Below are positions 5,835-35,800 of a stretch of DNA of 64,000 bases, one piece after another. The position numbers and the translations under genes are program-made. Position 1 is the stretch's first letter. The number at the start of each line of letters is the position of its first letter. Location of the stretch: contig OX638295.1 of the NCBI GenBank assembly GCA_951812345.1, forward strand, positions 2,328,965-2,392,964, written 5' to 3'. Source of the stretch: Rhodothermales bacterium. Lineage in GTDB: Bacteria; Bacteroidota; Rhodothermia; Rhodothermales; VXPQ01. The notes under the pieces were generated by a model. The model was not told the DNA's origin, ran no database searches, and saw only the letters and a list, made by a program, of their open reading frames with translations.

Positions 5835-5871
5835 GGATGCTCTGATTAAGTCCGCTTCGATCAGTGCATCC
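5835..5871. repeat. 37-bp palindromic copy of the GGATACTCTGAT repeat family, overlapping the feoB 3' end
   Basis: The sequence begins GGATGCTCTGATTAAG and ends ATCAGTGCATCC; the two ends are inverted repeats with one mismatch, so the RNA on either strand would fold into a hairpin. Four-base direct repeats (CCAG) flank it at 5831-5834 and 5872-5875. It lies between convergent genes and could serve as a bidirectional terminator. The feoB stop codon (5861-5863 on the minus strand) and its last two residues lie inside it. Confidence 0.75.
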
Positions 5872-16688: not shown

Positions 16689-19600
16689 TCAGAGGGTAGT
16701 ATCCCCGGCGCCGGACACGAAGACCTTCAGGGCCGCATCGTTCTGCGCAACCACCGTAAGCGGACCCGTTGCAGTGCCCACGCGAACCATGCCGCGCACT
16801 ACCCCGGGCGCCAAAAAACCGCTCCGGGAAGCAGGAACGCTTTCCCAGGTCATCTCCCCGCGATGCAACAAAAGAAGGCCGCGCCCCCCATTGTAACGGC
16901 CCCACTGCGCGCGCGTCTCGAAAGCATTGCCTGCAAGAAGGATATCCGTCTGTCCGTCGCCGTCCGCATCCTCGAAAAGGATGGCGTGCACCGGAGCAAA
17001 CTGCGCTTCGACAGGCAATTCCTGCATCCGGAACCGGCCTTCCCCGGTGTTCTCAAAAACGCTGCTGGCAAATTGGAAAGCCTCCAACCTGACCGTGGGC
17101 TCCACCTCGGAAAAAACATCGTCCAGCGTGGCGCGGGCGTACGAGGCATAATCCGGAAATTGCCGGGCAAGCAACGGAATCTCCTCCAGCAATTCGTCTC
17201 GCCAGGGCACAGGGTGCCTTTGCTCGCCGATGTAATATCCCATGACGAATTCGGAATGCCCGTCGGCGCCGAAATCCGCGGAATACACCGCGGCGGGTTT
17301 GTCCGGACCGGCTTGCATCTGCGCGTTCAACCCCCGGTTGCCAGCGACCAGGTCGATATCGCCGTCGCCGTCCAGATCCTGCGCGCGCAGGACATTCCAC
17401 CAGCCTGCCGTACCGGCGAAACCTGTTTCGGAAGCGGGTATCTCGGCCCATTCTCCGGCGTACCGGAACGCCCGGATCGGCATCCACTCTCCCGCCATAA
17501 CCAGTTCGGCGCGCCGATCTCCATCCATATCCATCCACAGGGCGTCGGTCACCATGCCCGGCGCACGCAGCGCTTCCGGCGTGATGTCCGCGAACGCGCC
17601 GTCCGTATTCTCCAGCAGATAACTGCGCGGAGCAAGCGGATAGCGACCCGGAAGCACCCGCCCGCCTACGAAAAGGTCGAGATCGCCATCCGTATCGAAA
17701 TCGTGCGCCGCTACCGTACCTCCGCTGCTGTGCAAAGCGGGCAAGGCTTGCGCGGCATGGGCGTACACGCCGGCGCCGTCATTGACGTACAGGCGATCCT
17801 GATACACCGACATATCCTCCGCTTCGAACGATCCGCCGCTGACCACATACAGGTCCCGGTCGCCGTCCCCGTCCGCATCCAGGAACAGGGCGTCCGTATC
17901 CTCATAGCCGCTATGCGCTTCGAAAGCCGCGCCGGGACCCCGGCCAAACGATCCGTCGGGGCGCTGCAAAAAAAGCGCACCGGACTGACCTCCCGCCCCA
18001 CCCACGAATACATCCTCCAGCCCGTCCCCGTCCGCATCGCCAGCCGCCAGCGCAGGCCCCTGGCGCGACAACATATGCGGGAGAAGGCGCTCGCGCTCAA
18101 AATCGACGAACGGATTCTCTTCATGGACGAACTGCAAACCCCTGGCATCCGCCGCCTCTGCGAAGAACGGAGGGGGTTCCAGGGCCTCCCGTTCATCCGG
18201 CGCCTCGAACCCGGCGTCCCGGCGATGCAGCGTCACCGTTTGATTCGCGGGCACGCCCTGCAGCCGCTGACGCGCCCCGTCCGGCCAGATCACTTCGAGA
18301 TCGACCTGCTCCAATGCGCCCAGGCCGAAAAAAAGCACCGGTTCCACGGACGACAAATACCCCCGCACGGGATTCATTTCCCGGAAAAACCGCTGTCCTG
18401 CCCCTGTTACCCCGACCGCAGCGCCAATCCCGTACCGGTTGCCTTCCGGGCCTTCGAGACGCACCTTCAGATAATGCCCCGTCGCAAGACGATCCGCATC
18501 GTTGCGGTAAACAAAGGCTTCCGCATTGATGTTGTTGACCACAAGATCCAGGTCCCCATCGTCGTCCAGATCGGCGTAGGCCGCGCCGTTCGAAGAGGCG
18601 GCCTCGCCCATCCCCCAGTCCTGCGTCTTGTCCGCAAAGGCGATTCCCGATTCGTTCCGATAGATATAGTTGCGGAGCAGGGTGGAAGGCATTTGCCGGA
18701 TCATTTCCATGGAGGACAAGGCTTCCCCCCGGGCACTCGCTTCCTGGTATGCATTCACCAGCGTGCGCCGGAGAAAATCGAGATTCGTGTAGTCGCGCAC
18801 GAAGCCATTCGTGACGAAAAGATCGTTGCGGCCATCGAGATCGAAGTCTGCCAGCAACGGCGCCCAGCTCCAGTCGGTATTCGAAACGCCTGCGAGTTGG
18901 CCGATTTCCGTAAAAGCCCCATCTCCCCTGTTCAGGTGCAGCATATTGCGCATATACTGCTCGTGAAACCCCTTACTCCGGATGTCTGCGTAAAATACAT
19001 GGTCTTTCGGCCCTTGCAGCACCTTCTGCCGAAAATGATCTTCGGCTATCATATCCAGCGTCGCAATGTCGGGCAACGCATCGTTGTTTATATCGGCAAT
19101 GTCGGCCCCCATGGACGAGTAGGACGTATGCGTCAGGAACGAGCGGACGGATTCGGTAAACGTCCCGTCCCCATTGTTCACGTACAGATAATCGTCCTCG
19201 ATAAAGTCGTTGGAAACGTAGATATCGGACCAGCCGTCCCGGTTCAAATCGCCAACGATCGCACTGAGTCCGAAACCCAGCGGATTGCCGATGACGCCCG
19301 CCGCTTCGCTCACGTCCGTAAACGATCCGCCGTCGTTCCGGTACAGTTTGTCGCCGACCAGGGAGTCGCGAGCACTCCGCATATAGTCTATATAAAAGCG
19401 GGTCAAACGCCGGATCGAATGATTCAGCAGATATACATCCAGGTCGCCATCCCGGTCGTAATCGAACAGGGCCGCGTGGGTCGAGTAGGCAGGATCGTCG
19501 AGACCGTATTCCGCCGCTCGTTCGGTAAACGTCCCGTCCCCGTTGTTGACGTACAAAACGTTCCGGCGGGAATCCGCGCTCACCCGGCCCGATTTGCACA

Positions 19601-20003
19601 CATAGATGTCCAGATGTCCATCCCCGTTGATGTCCGCCATCGTTACGCCGGTCGTCCAGCCGAATTCGCTCGCAAGACCCGCCTGCTCCGTGACGTCTTC
19701 GAACACCAGACCACCCCGGTTGAGATACAGGCGGTCCTGATCCAGGTTGGCGGAAAAATACAGATCGGGCAGGCCGTCGCCATTCACATCGCCGGCAGCC
19801 ACGCCGGCCCCGTTATAGAAACTATCGTACTCCAGCACATTGAATCCGTCCCGTTCTATGATCTCGTTCCTGAAAGTGATACCTGTCTCGACCGAGGACA
19901 AGCGTGTAAAGAGCGGGGCAGCAGCATCCTCGACCTCGCCCGCCGGGCCGCCGCATGCACCAACCAGGCACAAAAGAAATGAAAGCGGAACAATACGCTT
20001 CAT
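16689..20003 (-). CDS. FG-GAP/VCBS repeat lipoprotein with ASPIC/UnbV domain (CRTAC1-like)
   Basis: An 1104-residue protein with a lipobox (LCLVGACGG, Cys near residue 17). Many Ca-binding FG-GAP repeats of the type DVNGDGLPDLYF, DINGDGHLDIYV and DYDRDGDLDVYL form a predicted seven-bladed propeller. An ASPIC/UnbV domain lies at about 520-610 (FFREMNPVRGYLSSVEP, LEVIWPDGARQRL), followed by a second block of FG-GAP repeats to the C terminus. Such proteins are tethered at the cell surface or in the periplasm and are thought to bind carbohydrate or protein ligands. The gene is convergent with the DUF5916-type gene; an imperfect inverted repeat (GTTCAACAGCA at 16626, TGCTTGTTGAAC at 16651) in the short gap may be a terminator. 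Confidence 0.85.
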   Translation of the reverse strand: MKRIVPLSFLLCLVGACGGPAGEVEDAAAPLFTRLSSVETGITFRNEIIERDGFNVLEYDSFYNGAGVAAGDVNGDGLPDLYFSANLDQDRLYLNRGGLVFEDVTEQAGLASEFGWTTGVTMADINGDGHLDIYVCKSGRVSADSRRNVLYVNNGDGTFTERAAEYGLDDPAYSTHAALFDYDRDGDLDVYLLNHSIRRLTRFYIDYMRSARDSLVGDKLYRNDGGSFTDVSEAAGVIGNPLGFGLSAIVGDLNRDGWSDIYVSNDFIEDDYLYVNNGDGTFTESVRSFLTHTSYSSMGADIADINNDALPDIATLDMIAEDHFRQKVLQGPKDHVFYADIRSKGFHEQYMRNMLHLNRGDGAFTEIGQLAGVSNTDWSWAPLLADFDLDGRNDLFVTNGFVRDYTNLDFLRRTLVNAYQEASARGEALSSMEMIRQMPSTLLRNYIYRNESGIAFADKTQDWGMGEAASSNGAAYADLDDDGDLDLVVNNINAEAFVYRNDADRLATGHYLKVRLEGPEGNRYGIGAAVGVTGAGQRFFREMNPVRGYLSSVEPVLFFGLGALEQVDLEVIWPDGARQRLQGVPANQTVTLHRRDAGFEAPDEREALEPPPFFAEAADARGLQFVHEENPFVDFERERLLPHMLSRQGPALAAGDADGDGLEDVFVGGAGGQSGALFLQRPDGSFGRGPGAAFEAHSGYEDTDALFLDADGDGDRDLYVVSGGSFEAEDMSVYQDRLYVNDGAGVYAHAAQALPALHSSGGTVAAHDFDTDGDLDLFVGGRVLPGRYPLAPRSYLLENTDGAFADITPEALRAPGMVTDALWMDMDGDRRAELVMAGEWMPIRAFRYAGEWAEIPASETGFAGTAGWWNVLRAQDLDGDGDIDLVAGNRGLNAQMQAGPDKPAAVYSADFGADGHSEFVMGYYIGEQRHPVPWRDELLEEIPLLARQFPDYASYARATLDDVFSEVEPTVRLEAFQFASSVFENTGEGRFRMQELPVEAQFAPVHAILFEDADGDGQTDILLAGNAFETRAQWGRYNGGRGLLLLHRGEMTWESVPASRSGFLAPGVVRGMVRVGTATGPLTVVAQNDAALKVFVSGAGDTTL

Positions 20004-20074
20004 GCGGGAAGTAGCCGTGGATCAGGCCGGATCGTAAGGAAGGTCGGGACACAAACGTATTGCAACGCATCCGG

Positions 20075-20103
20075 TTGCAATGCGGAGCCGGGCGCACTAA
20101 TAC
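20075..20103 (+). promoter_or_regulatory. Putative promoter of the fbaB gene
   Basis: TTGCAA at 20075-20080 and TAATAC at 20098-20103 are separated by 17 bases, about 165 bases before the fbaB start. If used, the transcript leader would contain the 63-bp repeat at 20149-20211. Confidence 0.35.
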
Positions 20104-20148
20104 CATCACAATTCACACATAAAACACGCCGTATGAAGTATGTATTTA

Positions 20149-20211
20149 GGATACTCTGACCAAAACCGCTTCGCTCAGCCTCTGAACTTTGCAGACTTAA
20201 TCAGAGTATCC
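20149..20211 (-). repeat. 63-bp internally deleted copy of the GGATACTCTGAT repeat
   Basis: Read on the minus strand it joins the left end of the full-length element (GGATACTCTGATTAAG then TCAGAGGCT) directly to its right end (GAGCGAAGCGGTTTTGG then TCAGAGTATCC), missing the roughly 190-base interior. TA dinucleotides flank both sides. It sits in the predicted leader of fbaB and gives a spurious in-frame extension to that gene. Confidence 0.85.
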
Positions 20212-20268
20212 TATCTTATGGGGTTTTTTGCCCGGATACTTGCAAACCTTCATTTTCCTGATCCCTTC

Positions 20269-21348
20269 ATGAGCGACGTACTTACTGCCCGCACCGCCGA
20301 TGTTCTCGGCGAAGAAGCCGCCTACCTGCTCGACCACGAGTGTACTACCATCCCCAAAGAAAGTCTGTATCTGCCGGGGGCCGACTTCGTAGACCGCGTA
20401 TGGCTCGGATCGGACCGCAAGCCGCGCGTCCTGGGCTCCATGCAGCAACTTTTCAACACGGGGCGGCTCGGCGGCACGGGATACCTTTCGATTCTCCCGG
20501 TGGACCAGGGCATCGAGCACGGCGCCGGAGCATCGTTCGCCAAAAATCCGGCCTACTTCGATCCCGAGAAAATCGTCGAACTCGCCATCGAGGGCGGGTG
20601 CAACGCGGTCGCTTCGACGTTCGGCGTCCTGGGAGCGGTGGCGCGCAAATACACGCACAGGATTCCGTTTATCCTGAAATTCAACCACAACGAACTGCTC
20701 ACCTACCCGAATACGTACGACCAGATTCTCTTCGCACAGATCGAAGACGCGTACGAAATGGGCTGTGTGGGCGTGGGCGCCACCGTGTATTTCGGCTCGG
20801 CGGATTCCAACCGGCAGCTTCAGGAAGTCTCGGAGGCCTTCTCCGTAGCGCACGAACTCGGGATGACGACCATTCTGTGGTGTTACGTCCGGAATTCCGC
20901 CTTCAACCAGAACGGCGTGAATCACGAGTCCAGCGCCGACCTGACAGGACAGGCCAACCACCTCGGCGTAACCATCGAGGCCGATATCATCAAGCAGAAG
21001 CAACCGGAGCAGAACGGAGGGCTGAAGGCGATGAATATGGGCGCATCGAGTTACGGCAAGTTGGACGACCGCATGTTCACCGAGCTCTCGAGCGACCATC
21101 CCATCGACCTGACGCGGTACCAGGTGGCCAACTGCTACATGGGGCGGTGCGGCCTGATCAATTCCGGCGGCGGTTCAGGCCAAAACGACTTGCAGCAAGC
21201 CGTACGGACCGCGGTCATCAACAAGCGCGCCGGCGGCATGGGATTGATTTCCGGGCGCAAGGCCTTCCAGAAACCATTGCATGAAGGCGTCGAGATTCTG
21301 AACGCCATCCAGGACGTATACCTCGACGACGACGTAACGATCGCATAG
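20269..21348 (+). CDS. fbaB: Class I fructose-bisphosphate aldolase (FbaB/DhnA type)
   Basis: A 359-residue cytosolic enzyme matching the FbaB family along its length: [19 protein letters not shown] near residue 70, [49 protein letters not shown]-type segment, [19 protein letters not shown] and the C-terminal [12 protein letters not shown]. It cleaves fructose-1,6-bisphosphate to glyceraldehyde-3-phosphate and dihydroxyacetone phosphate through a Schiff base. The ATG at 20269 ([14 protein letters not shown]) is chosen because the in-frame extension back to 20140 is repeat-derived. It sits alone between two large FG-GAP lipoproteins. Confidence 0.95.
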
Positions 21349-21407
21349 GCCGCCGGAAACGACCGCGGCCCATCCGGCAGCACATTTTCGGATACTCTTC
21401 CGATCTC

Positions 21408-24400
21408 ATGACCAGGCACCCAAGCGCCTCGCTCGTTTCCCGGTTTACGGCAGTATCCGCCGTCGTTCCGGCTATTGTTCTGGCCGTTTTTGTCGGAGCA
21501 TGCGGAGGCCCGGACCTGCCGCAACCGGATTCCGAAACGTATCGCGAGACCGTCTCCGCCTTCTATACGGGGCTGGCAGCCATCGAGTCGGGAATCGACC
21601 GGCAAGGCGAGGAACGCCTGCTGCGGGTCACGGAACTGGCGCCGGGAGAACCCGCCGCGTGGGTCAACCTCGGACTGCTGGCCATGCGCCGGAACGAATA
21701 TGCGCTCGCCTCGGAGCACCTCGGGGAGGCGCAAACCCTCGCGCCGGAAAACAGCGTCATACGCCTTCTGCTCGGCCTGTTCGAAAAAACCCAGGGCAAC
21801 GTCACGGAAGCCACTGCCCACCTGCGGGAGGCCGTGGCGCTCGACTCTACAAACGCCAAGGCGTTGTATGCGCTGGCCGAGCACCTGACGGACACCGGAA
21901 GCGACGAAGCAACGGCCTTGCTGGACGCGCTCCTGAAAGTGTATCCGGATAATCTGGCGGCCCTGCTCCGCCGCGCCGGGGCGGCATCGGCTTCGGGCGA
22001 CGCCGATGCATTACGGAATACGCTGGCGCATATCGAAACCTTGTCCGCGTCCTGGCCGGACGAAGCCCTCGAACAACTGGCCGGCGTGAACGCAGCGGTA
22101 TCCGATCCGGACGCACCCGACTTCGCCGCGGCGACCACCCATATCGCTTTTGCGCGGAATGTGCTCCTGCGGGTTTCCTCGTATCGCCAGGACCTGCGTG
22201 CCATCCAGACGCCCGCCGAACAGGTAGGCGATCTGGTAACCGGCTTCCTGCGGCTGGAAGCCCCGCCTCCCGCCATCGCGCCCCGCGACGACCGGTTGAC
22301 GTTCACGCAACAAGCGCTGAATATAGAGGAGGGTCCCTGGCGCAGCGTGGCCGTGTTCTCGCCAGTAGCAGGCATTGACGAAAACACGGACGGCAACGAA
22401 ACGAACGTGCCCGGCATTGCGCTGGCCATTGCCGACGACCAGGCTGTGCACCTTCCAAACGGCCAGATCCTCGATTTTCCCGGAGGAGGCGCAGCGCCCG
22501 GACCGCATGGCGTCGCCGGGATCGATTACGACTACGACTTCACCATGGACCTCGCGCTGGCCGGAGCAGGCGGTTTGCGTATGTTCCGACAGGACAGCAC
22601 GGGGGTCTTTACGGAAACGACCTCGCAGTTAGGGTTGCCCGAGGCCATCCTGAATGCCTCCCTGGCGGGCGTCTGGGCCGCCGACCTCGATCTTGAAGGC
22701 GATGTCGATCTGGTGCTGGCCCGCCACGAAGGCCCCAGCCTTGCCCTGCGAAACAACGGCGACGGCGCCTTCGCGCCCCTGGATCTTTTCGGGGACGTCG
22801 AAGCGCTGCGGAGCTTCGCCTGGGGGGATTTCGACGGCGACGGAGATCCGGACGCCGCGCTCGTGGATGCACATGGAAATCTGCATCTTTTCGCCAACCG
22901 GCGGAGCGGGCTTTTCGAGCGGCAATCTTCGGAAACGGCGCCCGTCCTCGCCGTTGAAGCGGCGGACCTGAACGGCGACGCCACCGTCGATCTTGCGGCG
23001 CTGCAAGCGGACGGAACGATTCTGCAACTTTCGACCACCGGCGAAGATGCGAAAGCCGTATGGTCTTCGGAAGAAATCGCCCGATGGGAAGACATGCCTG
23101 CCGGCATGGCCCCCGGCGCCGGACAGCTTTTCACCGTGGACCTGGACAACAACGGCGGACTGGATCTCGTCGCAGCCACCCCCGCAGGCGCCCGCATCTG
23201 GCTGCGGGATGCGGACGAAACGAACGGCGGACGCCGGGGCGGAACCCTCCACCCGACGGATCACGCCATCGCCTCGCACCTCTTTGCCGTGGCGGATCTG
23301 TCCGCAAACGGGCGGCTCGATCTGCTTGGATTATCCGAAGCGGGACAGCCTGTGCGACTCGAAAACGAGGGAAGCATGCCCTACCACTGGAAACAGATGC
23401 ACTTGCGCGCCGCCGAAGCGGTAGGCGACCAGCGCATCAATTCGTTCGGGATCGGGGGCGAAGTGGAAATCCGAGCGGGTTTGTCTTTCCAGAAACAGGT
23501 CATCCAGGGTCCCGTCGTGCATTTCGGACTGGGTACGCACGCCGTCGCGGATGTGGCCCGCATCGTATGGCCCAACGGCAGCGTACAGGCCGAGTTCGAT
23601 CTGCTCTCCGGGGAAGTCGTGCTGGCGCAGCAACGGCTTAAGGGGTCGTGCCCATGGCTCTTTGCATGGAACGGGGAGAAAATAGACTTCGTCACCGATT
23701 TCATCTGGCGCTCGCCGCTGGGGCTCAAGATCAACGCACAGGAAACGGCGGGAGTCATGACCACCGAGGACTGGGTCAAAATACGCGGCGACCAGTTGGC
23801 GCCCCGCCCCGGCGAGAACGGCGCCCCCCCCTGGTACGATGTGCGGATTACGGCGGAACTGTGGGAGACGCATTTCTTCGATCATGTTTCGCTCCTCGTC
23901 GTCGATCATCCCGACGATACCGAGGTCTACGTGGACGAGCGGTTTGCTTTCCCGCCCCCTGAAATGAAGGTGCACGTGACCTCAAAACCCCACCCGGTCG
24001 CGCAGGCATGGGACGATCTGGGCAACGACGTGACCGACCTCCTCTACGCGGAGGACGAGCGGTACCTTGCCACGTTCGGACACGGACAGTACCAGGGCGT
24101 CACACGGGATCACTACGTGGAACTGACGCTTGAAAACATTCCGGAAGATGCATCGCAACACGGCCCGATCTGGCTTGTGGGCTCCGGCTGGATTTATCCC
24201 ACGGACAGCTCGATCAATGTAGCGCTCGGACAAGGATCGCATGCCCCGCCGCAGGGTCTGCACCTGGAAGCCTCCGACGGACAGGGCGGCTGGCGAACCA
24301 TCCACCCCAACCTCGGCTTCCCCGCCGGCAAGACCAAGACGGTCCTCATAGACATCACGGAGGTGTTTGCGGACGGACAGGAAGCCGGCGCGCCGAATGC

Positions 24401-24992
24401 GTCCGATCCTGTTCGCCTGCGCCTGCATACGAACCTCGAAATCTACTGGGACGCCTTTGCGTGGGCCGTCGGACAGCCCGATACAGAGACCACGACCCGG
24501 CGTCTGGCGCCCGATGCGGCGGATCTGCGCTACCGGGGCTTTTCGGAAACGTACGAAGCGGACGCCTTCTCGCCGGAACTGCCCGTCTACGACGAGTTGG
24601 CCGCAACCGGTCAGGTCTGGCGCGATCTCGTCGGATATCATACCCGGTTCGGGGACGTGCGCGAACTGCTCGCAGAAGTGGACGACCGGTACGTGATCAT
24701 GAATGCGGCCGACGAAATGGCTTTCCGGTTCGAGGCCCCGCCGCCTCCGCCGGAAGGATGGACCCGCGATTTCGTACTGATCGGAGACGGATGGGTGAAG
24801 GACGGCGACTACAACACGGGCTTCTCCAAAACGGTGCTGCCCCTCCCCTCCCATGACGACGCAGCCTACGCCACGCCTCCGGGACAACTCGAAGACGATC
24901 CGGTGTACCGCCGCTTCCCGGACGACTGGGCGCGCTATCACACCCGGTACGTCACGCCGGAGCGCTTTCACGAGGCAATGCGGGCGGAATAA
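21408..24992 (+). CDS. Lipoprotein with TPR, FG-GAP repeats, ASPIC/UnbV and a long C-terminal region
   Basis: An 1194-residue protein with a lipobox (VFVGACGG, Cys near residue 32). TPR-like helices occupy about 60-190 (AAWVNLGLLAMRRNEYALA, LREAVALDSTNAKALYALAE). FG-GAP repeats follow at about 330-640 (DYDYDFTMDLALAG, DLDLEGDVDLVLA, DFDGDGDPDAALVD), then an ASPIC/UnbV domain at about 670-745 (INSFGIGGEVEIRAG, ARIVWPNGSVQ). The last 440 residues (from LKGSCPWLFAWNGEKIDFV) contain no recognised domain but are well-ordered, with many aromatic residues. It shares the FG-GAP plus ASPIC/UnbV core with the protein at 16689 but differs in the TPR and C-terminal parts. It is likely surface-exposed; its function is unknown. 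Confidence 0.83.
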   Translation: MTRHPSASLVSRFTAVSAVVPAIVLAVFVGACGGPDLPQPDSETYRETVSAFYTGLAAIESGIDRQGEERLLRVTELAPGEPAAWVNLGLLAMRRNEYALASEHLGEAQTLAPENSVIRLLLGLFEKTQGNVTEATAHLREAVALDSTNAKALYALAEHLTDTGSDEATALLDALLKVYPDNLAALLRRAGAASASGDADALRNTLAHIETLSASWPDEALEQLAGVNAAVSDPDAPDFAAATTHIAFARNVLLRVSSYRQDLRAIQTPAEQVGDLVTGFLRLEAPPPAIAPRDDRLTFTQQALNIEEGPWRSVAVFSPVAGIDENTDGNETNVPGIALAIADDQAVHLPNGQILDFPGGGAAPGPHGVAGIDYDYDFTMDLALAGAGGLRMFRQDSTGVFTETTSQLGLPEAILNASLAGVWAADLDLEGDVDLVLARHEGPSLALRNNGDGAFAPLDLFGDVEALRSFAWGDFDGDGDPDAALVDAHGNLHLFANRRSGLFERQSSETAPVLAVEAADLNGDATVDLAALQADGTILQLSTTGEDAKAVWSSEEIARWEDMPAGMAPGAGQLFTVDLDNNGGLDLVAATPAGARIWLRDADETNGGRRGGTLHPTDHAIASHLFAVADLSANGRLDLLGLSEAGQPVRLENEGSMPYHWKQMHLRAAEAVGDQRINSFGIGGEVEIRAGLSFQKQVIQGPVVHFGLGTHAVADVARIVWPNGSVQAEFDLLSGEVVLAQQRLKGSCPWLFAWNGEKIDFVTDFIWRSPLGLKINAQETAGVMTTEDWVKIRGDQLAPRPGENGAPPWYDVRITAELWETHFFDHVSLLVVDHPDDTEVYVDERFAFPPPEMKVHVTSKPHPVAQAWDDLGNDVTDLLYAEDERYLATFGHGQYQGVTRDHYVELTLENIPEDASQHGPIWLVGSGWIYPTDSSINVALGQGSHAPPQGLHLEASDGQGGWRTIHPNLGFPAGKTKTVLIDITEVFADGQEAGAPNASDPVRLRLHTNLEIYWDAFAWAVGQPDTETTTRRLAPDAADLRYRGFSETYEADAFSPELPVYDELAATGQVWRDLVGYHTRFGDVRELLAEVDDRYVIMNAADEMAFRFEAPPPPPEGWTRDFVLIGDGWVKDGDYNTGFSKTVLPLPSHDDAAYATPPGQLEDDPVYRRFPDDWARYHTRYVTPERFHEAMRAE

Positions 24993-31116: not shown

Positions 31117-32322
31117 ATGAACCCACTTCGTACGTTTGCGGCGGCGCTTCTTCTCGGAGCGCTGCTTTCCCTTGTAATGCACGGATCCGCCAGAGCGCAG
31201 GATCCGCCCCGCTTTGCCCTGCAGGACGGCGACCGCGTCGTGCTCGCGGGGGATGGCCTCATCGAACATGCCCAGCGTTTCGGCTATATCGAGGCCGCGC
31301 TCACCGTGCGGCGGCCCGGCCTGACCTTTCGCAACATCGGCTGGAGCGGCGACACGGTTTTCGGCGAGGCCCGAGACCACTACACCCACCCTCCCACGGC
31401 GTTCGAGCACCTTGTGGAGCAACTGACCGCCCCGCAGCCCACCGTGGCCGTGCTGGCGTACGGCGGTACGCTGGCCTTCGAAAACGACGACGCCCTGTCC
31501 GAAGCCGTCGACGGGTATCATACGCTCCTCGACACGCTGGCTACCCGAGACATACGCTGCGTACTCGTCTCCCCTGTTCCGCATGACAAGCACGCATCGC
31601 CCCACCCGGACGTGGCGGCCCTGAACGAACAGCTTGCCGCCGTGCGGGATGCCTTCAGAAAGGTCGCTGCCGTCCGCGAATGCGGCTGGGTCGATCTCTT
31701 CGACGCCATGGCGGAGGAATACGAGCAGGTGGCGCAGCAAGACATCGCCGGTCTTACCGAAAACGGCGTACGACTGAACGGAGCCGGGTACCGGGCGCTG
31801 GCCCGCCGCCTCGTCGAGGCGATGGAACCGCTGCCACCCGGCCTTTCCTCCGATCTTGCGCTGGACATCGACACCGGGAAAATCGCCGGAGGAACGCCCT
31901 ACGGAAGCAGCGAACAGGAAACCGGCGTCCATGCGATCGTCCCGAACCGCCTGCCCTATCCCGGCGAGGCCCGGAACGTGGTCATAACCGGGCTGCCCAG
32001 AGGAACGTACCGCCTGGCGGCGGGGGAACAGACCCTGACCGTCGGCACGGCCCGCGCATGGCGGGAAGGCGTCGCCGTACATCATCCCCAGGAAACCGAA
32101 CAACTGGCCGCCCTGCGCCGCGCCATCGTCGACAAGAACCGGTTATATTTCCGCCAGTACCGCCCGCAGAACGAAACCTACCTTGTGGGATTTCGCCAGT
32201 ACGAACAAGGCCAGAACGCTCCGGAACTTACCGAACTGGACCCGATCATTCACGAAAAGGAAAACGAGATCGGCAGGCTGCGCATCGGCAGCCCGCTCGT
32301 TTTCACGCTGACCCGCGAGTAA
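31117..32322 (+). CDS. SGNH-fold protein lacking catalytic residues, partner of the downstream cytochrome protein
   Basis: A 401-residue exported protein (signal peptide ending ARAQ). The first 240 residues have the SGNH/GDSL hydrolase layout: block I VVLAGDGLIE, block II GWSGDT, block III AYGGTLAF and block V NGVRLNGAGY. In block I the nucleophile Ser is replaced by Gly, and in block V the expected His is Arg, so it is probably not an active esterase. The remaining 160 residues resemble a beta-rich accessory domain. The stop is one base from the start of the PVC-type cytochrome gene, so the two are translationally coupled. Such pairs are known from Planctomycetota-type genomes. A role in carbohydrate or cell-surface binding is possible. 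Confidence 0.78.
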   Translation: MNPLRTFAAALLLGALLSLVMHGSARAQDPPRFALQDGDRVVLAGDGLIEHAQRFGYIEAALTVRRPGLTFRNIGWSGDTVFGEARDHYTHPPTAFEHLVEQLTAPQPTVAVLAYGGTLAFENDDALSEAVDGYHTLLDTLATRDIRCVLVSPVPHDKHASPHPDVAALNEQLAAVRDAFRKVAAVRECGWVDLFDAMAEEYEQVAQQDIAGLTENGVRLNGAGYRALARRLVEAMEPLPPGLSSDLALDIDTGKIAGGTPYGSSEQETGVHAIVPNRLPYPGEARNVVITGLPRGTYRLAAGEQTLTVGTARAWREGVAVHHPQETEQLAALRRAIVDKNRLYFRQYRPQNETYLVGFRQYEQGQNAPELTELDPIIHEKENEIGRLRIGSPLVFTLTRE

Positions 32323-32323
32323 C

Positions 32324-35300
32324 ATGCGACGATTTCTTCTGACCGCGGTCGGCCTTGCGGTCGCCCCCTCGCTGGCTGCGCAGGACAACCTGACCAATAT
32401 CCCGGATCCCGATCCGGCAGCCCAACTGGCTGCGCTGCACGTAGCGGAGGGATTCGAAATCAACCTCTTCGCCTCCGATCCCATGATCGACCCGCCCATC
32501 CAGATGGCGTGGGACGAACGGGGGAGATTGTTCGTGGCGACCAGCGCATCCTACCCGCAACCCGTACCGGGGCAGGCGGCCAACGACAAGATATTCATCC
32601 TTGAAGACACGGACGGCGACGGGCAGGCGGACCGCTCCATCCTGTTCGCCGACAGCCTGCTTACCCCCACGGGCGTGCTTCCCGGCGACGGCGGCGTATA
32701 TGTGGCCAATTCCACGGAAATCCTGCACCTGCGCGACACGGACGGCGACGGGCGGGCCGACCGGCGGCGCGTGGTGCTTTCGGGGTTCGGCGCGGACGAC
32801 ACGCACCATATTATCCACCGTTTTCTGTGGGGTCCCGACGGGCTGTTTTATCTGAACCAGTCCGTCTATATATATAGCCACATCGAAACGCCCTGGGGCG
32901 TACGCCGCCTCCGACAGGGCGGCATCTGGCAACTCGAACCCTCCACGCTGAAGCTGAATGTGCTGGCCCGCGGCATGTGGAATTCGTGGGGATACGATTT
33001 CGACCGGTGGGGGCAGTCGTTCGCGACGGACGGCGCCGGCGGCGAGGGCGTGTATTTCATCTTTCCCCATGCGGCCTACCGGCCCGCCTACGGGGCCGAG
33101 CGCACGCTCACGGGCCTGAATCCCCAGCAACCCAAATTGTCGGGCCTGGCCTTCCTTTCCGGAAGACATTTCCCCGACTCCCTGAGCGGCCAGCTCATCA
33201 CCAGCGACTTCCGGGCCAATCGGGTCAAACGCTTTGCGCTGACCGAGGACGGCAGCGGCTTTCTATCCGAAGAACAGGAGGACCTGATCTGGACGGATCA
33301 TGTGGCGTTCCGGCCCGTGGACGTGAATGTGGGACCGGACGGGGCCCTGTATCTCGCCGACTGGTACAACCCGATCATCCAGCACGGCGAGGTGGACTTC
33401 CGGGATCCGCGCCGCGATCACCGGCATGGACGAATTTGGCGCGTCACCGCCAAGGGGCAGCAGCCGCTGGCGCCGCCGGCCCTGCACGACGCGTCGGTGG
33501 AAGAGTTGCTGGCGGCGCTTAGCGCGCCCGAAGACTGGACACGGCGACAGGCCAAACGCCTCCTTCGCGAACGCGGCGCCGAGGCGGTCAAGCCGGCCCT
33601 GGACGCACAGGCGCAGCGGATGGACCGCAATGCGCCGGACGCTGCCCACGAATTGCTGCAAATGCTCTGGACCTACCAGGCCATCGGGCGCATGGACGCG
33701 GATTTGCTCCGCGAGACGCTCATGCTGAAGGATCACCGGGCGCGCGCCGCCGCCGTGCGCGTACTGGGCCATTTTCAAAACGAACTCCCCAACACGGATA
33801 CGCTGCTGGCCGCATTGATCGAGGACGAACACCCCCGTGTGCGCAGGGAGGCCATCCATGTGCTGGGCGAACGGGGGATGGTCGGCGGCGCCGAAGCCGG
33901 GGCCAACGCCGCATCCGTAGCGCTGCGGGCCCTTGACCGCCCCATGGACGATTTCCTGGATTACGCGTTGTGGCACGCGATCCGGAGGCTGGAGCCACAC
34001 TGGATGCCGCGTTTCAAGGAAGACAGTACGTTTCTCGGCACAGACCTGCGACACATTGCCTTTGCCTTGCAGACGGCGGAAGCGCCGGAAGCGGCGGCGC
34101 GCCTTGCAGAGCATTACGCCAACGGGGAAATCCCCGAAGACATGACCGCAAGCGCGCTGGAAGCCCTTGCGGAGCGTGGAGCCGCCGGGGAAATGGAAAC
34201 GCTCCTTGATCTTGCGGTCCGCGAAGAAACGCGCGGCGAAAACGGCGCGGTCGAACACCTCGACGCCCTGCTGACCGCCTCGGAAGACGAGGAGCGTCGC
34301 CCCGCCGACGCCACCGACCGGCTGCGGATGCTGCTCGAACGCGAAGACCCGGAAATCCGTACGCGGGCGGCCCGCCTCGCCGGAGCATGGGGCGAAACGA
34401 CGCTGCGATCTTCCCTGACGGACCTTGTGGAGGAACAGGAAGAAGCCGTGCAGGAAGCAGGACTGGAAGGCCTCGCCGCACTGCAGGACAGCACCAGTAT
34501 CGCCTGGTTGACGGCCCTTGTCGAAGACTCGGATCGCCCGCAGGCCTTGCGGCTGGAAGCGGCCCGGCTCCTGCCCTCCGCCGATGTCGAAAAAGCCGCT
34601 TCCGTCGCCGTTGCTTTTTTGAATGCAGCCACGGAGGATATAGACCCCTGGCCGCTTTTCAATGCATTCTTCCTGCAGGAAGGGGGGCGCGACGCCCTGA
34701 CGGACGCCCTGAACGAAGATGCAGGCGGGGCGACTATTCCGGCGGTCTTTGCGCAGGAAGGACTGGACCGCATCCGGGGACGCAACAGCAGCTACGAACC
34801 GCTCCGCGAAGCCTTTCTGGCCTCGGGGGCCGTCTCCACCGAGCCCCGCGTCGATCCCGACATGGACGGCTGGGCGTTGCAACGCCTCCATTACGATGTG
34901 AAAGGCAGAGGCAGCCCGGCCCGAGGCGAAGCGCTGTATGGGCGGCTGCAGTGCGCCAGTTGCCATGTGATTGGCGGGGCCGGCGGGCTCGCGGGTCCGG
35001 ATTTGTCGGATATCGGCGTGACAGCCCCCATCGACTATCTCACGGAATCCCTGCTGAAACCGGAGGAGGCCGTCAAGGACGGGTATACCCTGATACGCAT
35101 CGTGCATACGGACGGCGGCATCATGACAGGAAATCTCGTGGGCGAAACGGATTCGGAAGTGCTTGTGCGGGACGCCGCCGGAAGCGTAGAGCGCATTCCG
35201 AAAAGCCGCATCCAGACGCAGGAAATCATTCCGGGATCGCTCATGCCGCCGGGGCTTACCGCATCGCTCGACCGGGACGAGTTCGTGGACCTGGTGGCCT

Positions 35301-35800
35301 TTTTGTCCGCACTGGGCGAAGAAGGACCGTACCGGGCGCCTGCATGGCCGGAAGGCGAACAAACGGTCCGGCGCTGGCGCGTGCTGCAACACTCCGACGA
35401 GGCTGCCGAAGGGTTCCGGCAAACGGGCGTCTCGTTCGCCGCAGCCGCGCAAGACCTGATGTGGATGCCTGTGCACAGTACGGTGGCCGGAGACTTGCCC
35501 CTTGCGGAACTACCCGAAGCGGGCGGATACAGCGCGGCGTACTTCGAGGTAGACGTCGAAACGGCGGGCCCGGTCGCATTGGCCGTGCATCCCCCGAACG
35601 ACAGGTCGGAGGGGATATCGGCCTGGGTAGACGGGCAGGCGACGCCGCTCAGCGAAGGGCGGATCGAGTTCGCCGGCGAGACGGGACGGCGCCGCATTAC
35701 GCTCGCCATAGACCGCGCGCAACACGCGGAAGGCGCTGTGCACGTGAAACTGCTTGCCGGACCCGGGAGCGCAGAGGCGTCCGTGGTAAAAGGGTGGTAA
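32324..35800 (+). CDS. PVC-type heme-binding protein: beta-propeller, HEAT repeats and cytochrome c domain
   Basis: An 1158-residue exported protein (signal peptide ending SLAAQ). Residues 35-380 form an NHL/PQQ-like propeller typical of 'membrane-bound dehydrogenase' PVC-type proteins (GFEINLFASDPMIDPPIQM, WDERGRLFVATS, FLWGPDGLFYLNQSVYIYS, VNVGPDGALYLADWYNP). HEAT-like helical repeats follow at about 390-800. A cytochrome c domain at about 860-1010 contains the heme motif CASCH (GRLQCASCHVIGGAGG) and a possible Met ligand in SLMPPGL. A beta-rich C-terminal part has no name. The family is predicted to oxidise sugars or related compounds in the periplasm and pass electrons to the heme. It overlaps the SGNH-like gene in an operon. 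Confidence 0.87.
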   Translation: MRRFLLTAVGLAVAPSLAAQDNLTNIPDPDPAAQLAALHVAEGFEINLFASDPMIDPPIQMAWDERGRLFVATSASYPQPVPGQAANDKIFILEDTDGDGQADRSILFADSLLTPTGVLPGDGGVYVANSTEILHLRDTDGDGRADRRRVVLSGFGADDTHHIIHRFLWGPDGLFYLNQSVYIYSHIETPWGVRRLRQGGIWQLEPSTLKLNVLARGMWNSWGYDFDRWGQSFATDGAGGEGVYFIFPHAAYRPAYGAERTLTGLNPQQPKLSGLAFLSGRHFPDSLSGQLITSDFRANRVKRFALTEDGSGFLSEEQEDLIWTDHVAFRPVDVNVGPDGALYLADWYNPIIQHGEVDFRDPRRDHRHGRIWRVTAKGQQPLAPPALHDASVEELLAALSAPEDWTRRQAKRLLRERGAEAVKPALDAQAQRMDRNAPDAAHELLQMLWTYQAIGRMDADLLRETLMLKDHRARAAAVRVLGHFQNELPNTDTLLAALIEDEHPRVRREAIHVLGERGMVGGAEAGANAASVALRALDRPMDDFLDYALWHAIRRLEPHWMPRFKEDSTFLGTDLRHIAFALQTAEAPEAAARLAEHYANGEIPEDMTASALEALAERGAAGEMETLLDLAVREETRGENGAVEHLDALLTASEDEERRPADATDRLRMLLEREDPEIRTRAARLAGAWGETTLRSSLTDLVEEQEEAVQEAGLEGLAALQDSTSIAWLTALVEDSDRPQALRLEAARLLPSADVEKAASVAVAFLNAATEDIDPWPLFNAFFLQEGGRDALTDALNEDAGGATIPAVFAQEGLDRIRGRNSSYEPLREAFLASGAVSTEPRVDPDMDGWALQRLHYDVKGRGSPARGEALYGRLQCASCHVIGGAGGLAGPDLSDIGVTAPIDYLTESLLKPEEAVKDGYTLIRIVHTDGGIMTGNLVGETDSEVLVRDAAGSVERIPKSRIQTQEIIPGSLMPPGLTASLDRDEFVDLVAFLSALGEEGPYRAPAWPEGEQTVRRWRVLQHSDEAAEGFRQTGVSFAAAAQDLMWMPVHSTVAGDLPLAELPEAGGYSAAYFEVDVETAGPVALAVHPPNDRSEGISAWVDGQATPLSEGRIEFAGETGRRRITLAIDRAQHAEGAVHVKLLAGPGSAEASVVKGW

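Follow-up and report, generated by a model that had tools for sequence, protein, structure and literature searches.

What does a protein with the fold of an SGNH hydrolase do once the catalytic residues are gone? The question is raised by P0001, a protein of 401 residues encoded by an exact open reading frame at 31117..32322 of the window (the whole stretch of DNA analysed here, 64,000 nucleotides of a Rhodothermales bacterium contig); this and all other features given below lie on the + strand. P0001 is the separate-gene form of an SGNH head that, in other lineages, makes up one chain with the propeller protein encoded here by the next gene. Its parts follow one another in the order of a hydrophobic N-terminal stretch (residues 1-28, 31117..31200; by eye a probable signal peptide), the SGNH domain, a C-terminal beta domain common to P0001 and BT4096 (7br2) whose boundaries are approximate (about residues 245-322, 31849..32082), and a conserved tail (about residues 328-389, 32098..32283; KNRLYFRQYRPQN...EQGQN) that is probably a docking or linker element. 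The partner (32324..35800, 1158 residues) has a DUF7133/TIGR02604 propeller, HEAT repeats and a C-terminal cytochrome c with a CASCH heme motif (residues 877-881, 34952..34966). The two genes had been described in the first-pass annotation as translationally coupled, which is nearly the case: across the TAA-C-ATG junction (32320..32326), the stop codon of P0001 (32320-32322) and the start codon of the partner (32324) stand one base apart and do not overlap. An inverted repeat 5' of P0001 (31068-31104, found also at 5835-5871) is a copy of a dispersed palindromic element with 75 forward and 82 reverse matches genome-wide at no more than 3 mismatches, figures in which one site can be scored once per strand; the control gave 0. 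Also near the pair, at 16689-24992, FG-GAP/ASPIC-UnbV repeat proteins flank a DeoC/LacD-type aldolase.

Blocks I, II, III and V of the SGNH fold occur in order in P0001, as judged from the PF13472 match and a fold search with a weak model, and the catalytic positions within them have largely been replaced. Block I reads GDG in place of GDS (residues 45-47, 31249..31257), with Gly47 at the position of the nucleophile, and block V reads NGVRLN (residues 216-221, 31762..31779), with Arg219 at the position of the expected His, both as the first-pass annotation had claimed. We found two further losses: Thr118 stands for the oxyanion Asn in block III (GGT, residues 116-118, 31462..31470), and Asn216 stands for the Asp of block V. 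The oxyanion Gly78 of block II (GWSGD, residues 75-79, 31339..31353) is thus the only residue of the catalytic set left. The PF13472 match (4.9e-9, over the cut-off) aligns from profile position 24 onward, so block I of P0001 lies outside it. A PF13472 search of 21 related genomes gave 30 loci, which are the best-scoring ones and so lean towards proteins with block I intact; all 30 have G[DN]S near the start of the match and D..H near its end, and the three canonical SGNH proteins used as an outgroup each have all four catalytic residues. The window's own genome has five PF13472 matches; three GDSL proteins of this genome without a link to a propeller (GDS..DGVH, GNS..DGIH and GSSS..DGLH) have both Ser and His. 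Within the genus, Ser loss is common to all five readable members, and position 219 is Arg in five of six and His in the other (L006, 85% identical), so the loss of His in P0001 is recent or reversible.

To place these losses, profile searches for the family covered 244 genomes at the level of the class and 394 at that of the phylum, with 4-7 candidates scored per genome; they yielded 138 ORF copies, 102 of them distinct, of which three are the canonical enzymes of the outgroup and 99, P0001 included, were kept. On a quickly built tree with long outgroup branches, clade A consists of 19 separate genes including P0001, with a branch of three fused members (A') inside it; clade B of six separate genes, a paralog in the window's genus; clade C of 25 fused members and one whose ORF is ended by a contig edge (L044, G293:C60); and clade D of 45 fused members. 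A', B, C and D each occupy a single branch. In an alignment of homologs, such as the first-pass annotation had proposed, Ser and His stand together in 24 of these 99 Bacteroidota relatives. Ser47 is retained in 25 of 98 readable members (A 7/18 readable, A' 2/3, B 0/6, C 16/26, D 0/45) and His219 in 47 of 99 (A 13/19, A' 2/3, B 6/6, C 26/26, D 0/45), while Asn118 is present in 65/99 and Asp216 in 48/99. Two members combine Ser, His and Asp216, one of them (L030) with Asn118 as well, and 51 have neither Ser nor His. By parsimony the tree requires a minimum of 8 changes at Ser, 4 at His, 13 at Asn and 5 at Asp. From the alignment, the loss of catalytic residues is a trait of the family and not of P0001 alone. 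A search of plasmids returned one full relative, from Runella rosea, and the same search with the paralog returned the Runella rosea protein and a Kitasatospora GDSL protein; of 44 stretches examined in viral contigs none was confirmed as a relative. A single scan of genome contigs, with a reach limited to close relatives, found four loci, all in Rhodothermales. Similar SGNH-propeller fusions may also occur in Planctomycetes and Verrucomicrobia.

The best full-length solved relative of P0001 is BT4096 (profile A2, E 4.1e-24), the entry title of which reads "diltiazem-metabolizing enzyme". Both have an SGNH domain followed by a C-terminal beta domain; however, BT4096 has GNS, GMND and DRIHP intact in the alignment, which ends before the P0001 tail, whereas P0001 has none of these four catalytic residues (Ser, Asn, Asp, His) and has a propeller as its partner. 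An AlphaFold2 model made from P0001 and four relatives (pLDDT 54, pTM 0.48) is adequate for the fold and too weak for the pocket; the partner's model (pLDDT 42) is too weak for a pocket to be read. With the weak P0001 model, the best Foldseek match has an E of 1.6e-8, and VIA-align gives a Z of up to 16.1 for the SGNH domain against SGNH hydrolases (rmsd 3.0 over 187) and 12.9 for residues 28-401 against BT4096 (rmsd 6.2 over 255 residues). Matches to Pfam DUF459 (0.17) and to PDB entries from the single sequence (0.47 and 1.7) were set aside as chance or general SGNH similarity. Cys148 and Cys189 could form a disulfide: each recurs in 8 of the 19 clade A proteins, and all six genus members have both.

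The downstream neighbour had been described as a heme-propeller protein, and we confirmed this: it exceeds the curated cut-offs of both DUF7133 (PF23500; 266.2 bits, cut-off 27) and TIGR02604, the "PVC-type heme-binding CxxCH" proteins (255.8, cut-off 122.2), and its C-terminal CxxCH cytochrome domain, with the one CASCH motif, matches TIGR02603 at 96.8 bits (cut-off 68.15). SGNH head and DUF7133 propeller share one ORF in 73 of the 99 family members, and for 24 of the 25 separate genes the propeller follows directly in the same orientation, with a frame that starts no more than 130 nt past the SGNH stop. For the 25th (G254, L076/L216), one gene, acyltransferase-like by eye, stands before the propeller; a second contig opens with this same gene, followed by a propeller of the subtype, so a single gene intervenes, and we rejected the case as a counterexample because the matching contig ends link the intervening gene to that propeller. 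In the reverse direction, a search of 247 genomes with propeller profile A4 (7 candidates scored per genome, and thus showing coherence of the subtype, not a full census of propellers) found an SGNH module just upstream in all 32 propellers above 490 bits, the two matches lying 37-449 nt apart, a result that is partly circular since A4 was built from SGNH-linked propellers. Outside the subtype, propeller scores did not exceed 315 bits, and the listing shows no SGNH match within 2 kb of any of the remaining 52 DUF7133 places. The fused or split state has changed at least twice on the tree, and the SGNH gene and its partner are together in all six members of the genus. Near-obligate pairing is thus well supported by gene order and fusion, and the propeller is very likely the obligate functional partner of P0001. 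The same genome has a second SGNH-propeller pair (L090 5238-9522; G000:C1:1293238-1297522), in which block I of the SGNH protein reads GAS, aligned as Ala47, the His is retained, and the propeller has a C-terminal cupredoxin in place of a cytochrome. A third candidate pair, near G000:C1:2164339, was rejected: the SGNH protein there is intact and the window's propeller, used as query, had no match on that stretch (L173), where a TIGR02604 match below the cut-off lies 2 kb upstream.

The pair remains the same while the electron carrier at its C-terminus is exchanged. Partners in A, A' and D have a C-terminal cytochrome c with one C..CH in every complete frame (in A', L087 and L088 in full), and those in B and C have a plastocyanin/azurin-type (cupredoxin) C-terminus, assigned in C by eye from eight complete members; the exception is one C-type ORF (L129), the Pfam match of which is Cytochrom_C. 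At the N-terminus, four further DUF7133 members encoded in this genome (L212-L215) have DUF6807, ThuA (with a cupredoxin), an unrecognised stretch or nothing in the place of the SGNH head. Head and carrier thus both vary over DUF7133, and the SGNH head, found on one subtype only, is constant within it. As for the chemistry, the partner is likely a redox protein. Its residues 875-997 match the C-terminal cytochrome domain of Kustd1711, an anammox diheme cytochrome (7zs0, E 2.2e-17), the heme of which is described as a high-potential, electron-transferring one in PMC11791136, and it is from this resemblance that an oxidation is proposed. Kustd1711 differs from the P0001-partner system in having two cytochrome domains and neither propeller nor SGNH head. 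Against the GSDH profile the partner scores 16.9 bits, under the 25-bit cut-off, and none of the four PDB matches of the propeller profile is a solved dehydrogenase.

The first-pass annotation had proposed that P0001 is a binding subunit of an oxidoreductase complex and not an esterase. Drift and fixation at the catalytic positions, the near-obligate partner, the true fusions and purifying selection together argue for a non-esterase part of an oxidoreductase complex, and the non-esterase and partnership portions of that proposal stand; the binding and the redox role of the propeller are what we infer. The inactivity of P0001 and its partnership are well supported by comparison of sequences. 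On balance, we think that P0001, a deacetylase-like protein of the SGNH (GDSL) kind, has been retired from catalysis and now forms the N-terminal head of an exported oxidoreductase made up of two proteins. Export would be in keeping with the signal peptide judged by eye, and the conserved tail of P0001 probably docks on the DUF7133 propeller, which would bring the two into contact in the split form. The role of the head would then be to keep a substrate in place or to orient it, the best candidate being a glycan like those on which its deacetylase ancestor acted; oxidation of this substrate would fall to the propeller, and electrons would pass to the C-terminal cytochrome c, or to a cupredoxin in two sister clades. 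That the substrate may be of sugar type is suggested by the ancestry of P0001 together with the role in carbohydrate use proposed for related PVC cytochromes in PMC5615132. The chances that P0001 itself has a recognition or binding role appear evenly balanced.

The chief rival, which we nevertheless consider unlikely, is that the SGNH head binds no substrate and is a scaffold only, one that folds, stabilises, places or helps to mature the propeller, with a vestigial pocket. Contact alone would suffice to account for pairing and fusion, and the pocket positions of clade A are poorly conserved (position 118 ranks 192nd among 201 columns, 47 ranks 83rd and 219 ranks 75th), with the tail and the structural glycines retained; the ten most conserved columns of this clade include Gly45, Arg72, Asn73 and Gly78, which are structural residues of the same blocks. 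The pocket of clade A is indeed the most degenerate, which fits docking and binding equally. However, in clade D the substituted site is itself fixed (Asn47 45/45, Asp216 45/45, Gln219 44/45), and all 26 members of clade C have Asn118, Asn216 and His219, which argues for a retained binding site in those two clades.

A retired enzyme is also to be weighed against one still at work, through other residues or in some members of the family, in which case the pair would deacetylate and then oxidise a glycan. This we regard as improbable. With Ser and His together in 24 of 99 relatives, some may still be enzymes, and L030 has all four residues; clade C, with its His and Asn118 in 26/26, may include active members, and the entry title of BT4096, a close relative of solved structure, describes an active enzyme. 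Yet P0001 retains the block II Gly alone, the other four residues being gone, and close relatives in clades A and C have Gly or Ala in place of Ser, with the alternation in clade C speaking against activity. Nor did we find, in the SGNH domain of clade A, any invariant Ser or His that could serve as a replacement, the best being Ser152 (17/19) and His98 (14/19). Ser77 was rejected as a new nucleophile because it alternates with Thr within clade A and because clade D has Gly, Pro or Ala there besides Ser, and Ser152 was rejected because it stands also in the aligned, intact BT4096 and is thus probably structural. From its residues, P0001 is almost certainly not an SGNH hydrolase. That P0001 is a decaying gene losing all function, as the loss of several catalytic residues and the fast tail of substitutions at the clade A pocket positions might suggest, is highly improbable given a dN/dS of 0.16-0.36 over 15 pairs of the six genus members, the lack of stop codons, and a gene that stays with its partner in 6/6 of them. 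This range, against 0.17-0.23 for the partner, indicates purifying selection on a protein in use and speaks against a pseudogene; the catalytic residues are gone and the protein sequence is under constraint, as in a pseudoenzyme.

Reuse of a dead SGNH domain is already known from the OSK domain of insect Oskar, in which Ser and His are disrupted and the domain has a non-catalytic role, as described in PMC2848206 and PMC7250577. OSK and P0001 are alike in being dead, reused SGNH domains; OSK belongs to insect germ plasm, is fused to LOTUS/OST-HTH and is without a part in electron transfer. DUF7133 and TIGR02604 are likewise known as named families. A further parallel is offered by the planctomycete-specific cytochrome c (PSCyt) proteins, bacterial cytochromes which according to PMC5615132 have exchangeable domains and a proposed role in carbohydrate use. 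None of the partner's nine Pfam matches is to a PSCyt or PSD family, and the extra domains are carbohydrate-binding modules (CBMs) in the PSCyt proteins and a pseudo-esterase in the P0001 system. The recurrent pseudo-esterase head on a DUF7133 subtype appears to be new, as the open-licence literature searched yielded no description of an SGNH head on a DUF7133 protein.

A wider and more tentative generalization, which we put forward as possible though doubtful, is that DUF7133 proteins are modular exported oxidoreductases in which a retired alpha/beta enzyme (SGNH, perhaps ThuA) often serves as the N-terminal recognition head; choice of the substrate would lie with the head, its oxidation with the propeller, and removal of the electrons with a cytochrome c or cupredoxin that can be exchanged, the dead site in the largest SGNH clade having been rebuilt as a fixed Asn-Asp-Gln ligand site. 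Automatic annotation labels such proteins as hydrolases of the SGNH/GDSL type, as with the relative from Runella rosea, and would mislead those who search for esterases. With Ser and His lost several times while the partner stayed the same, the family provides a natural series from enzyme fold to binding module. If the reading of P0001 as a retired head is correct, the ligand of the dead head could be used as bait, and the fused forms, such as L087 with its 1383 residues, would be single-chain targets for structure determination. The SGNH head would then be a handle on the substrate of the DUF7133 proteins, which are widespread exported cytochromes.
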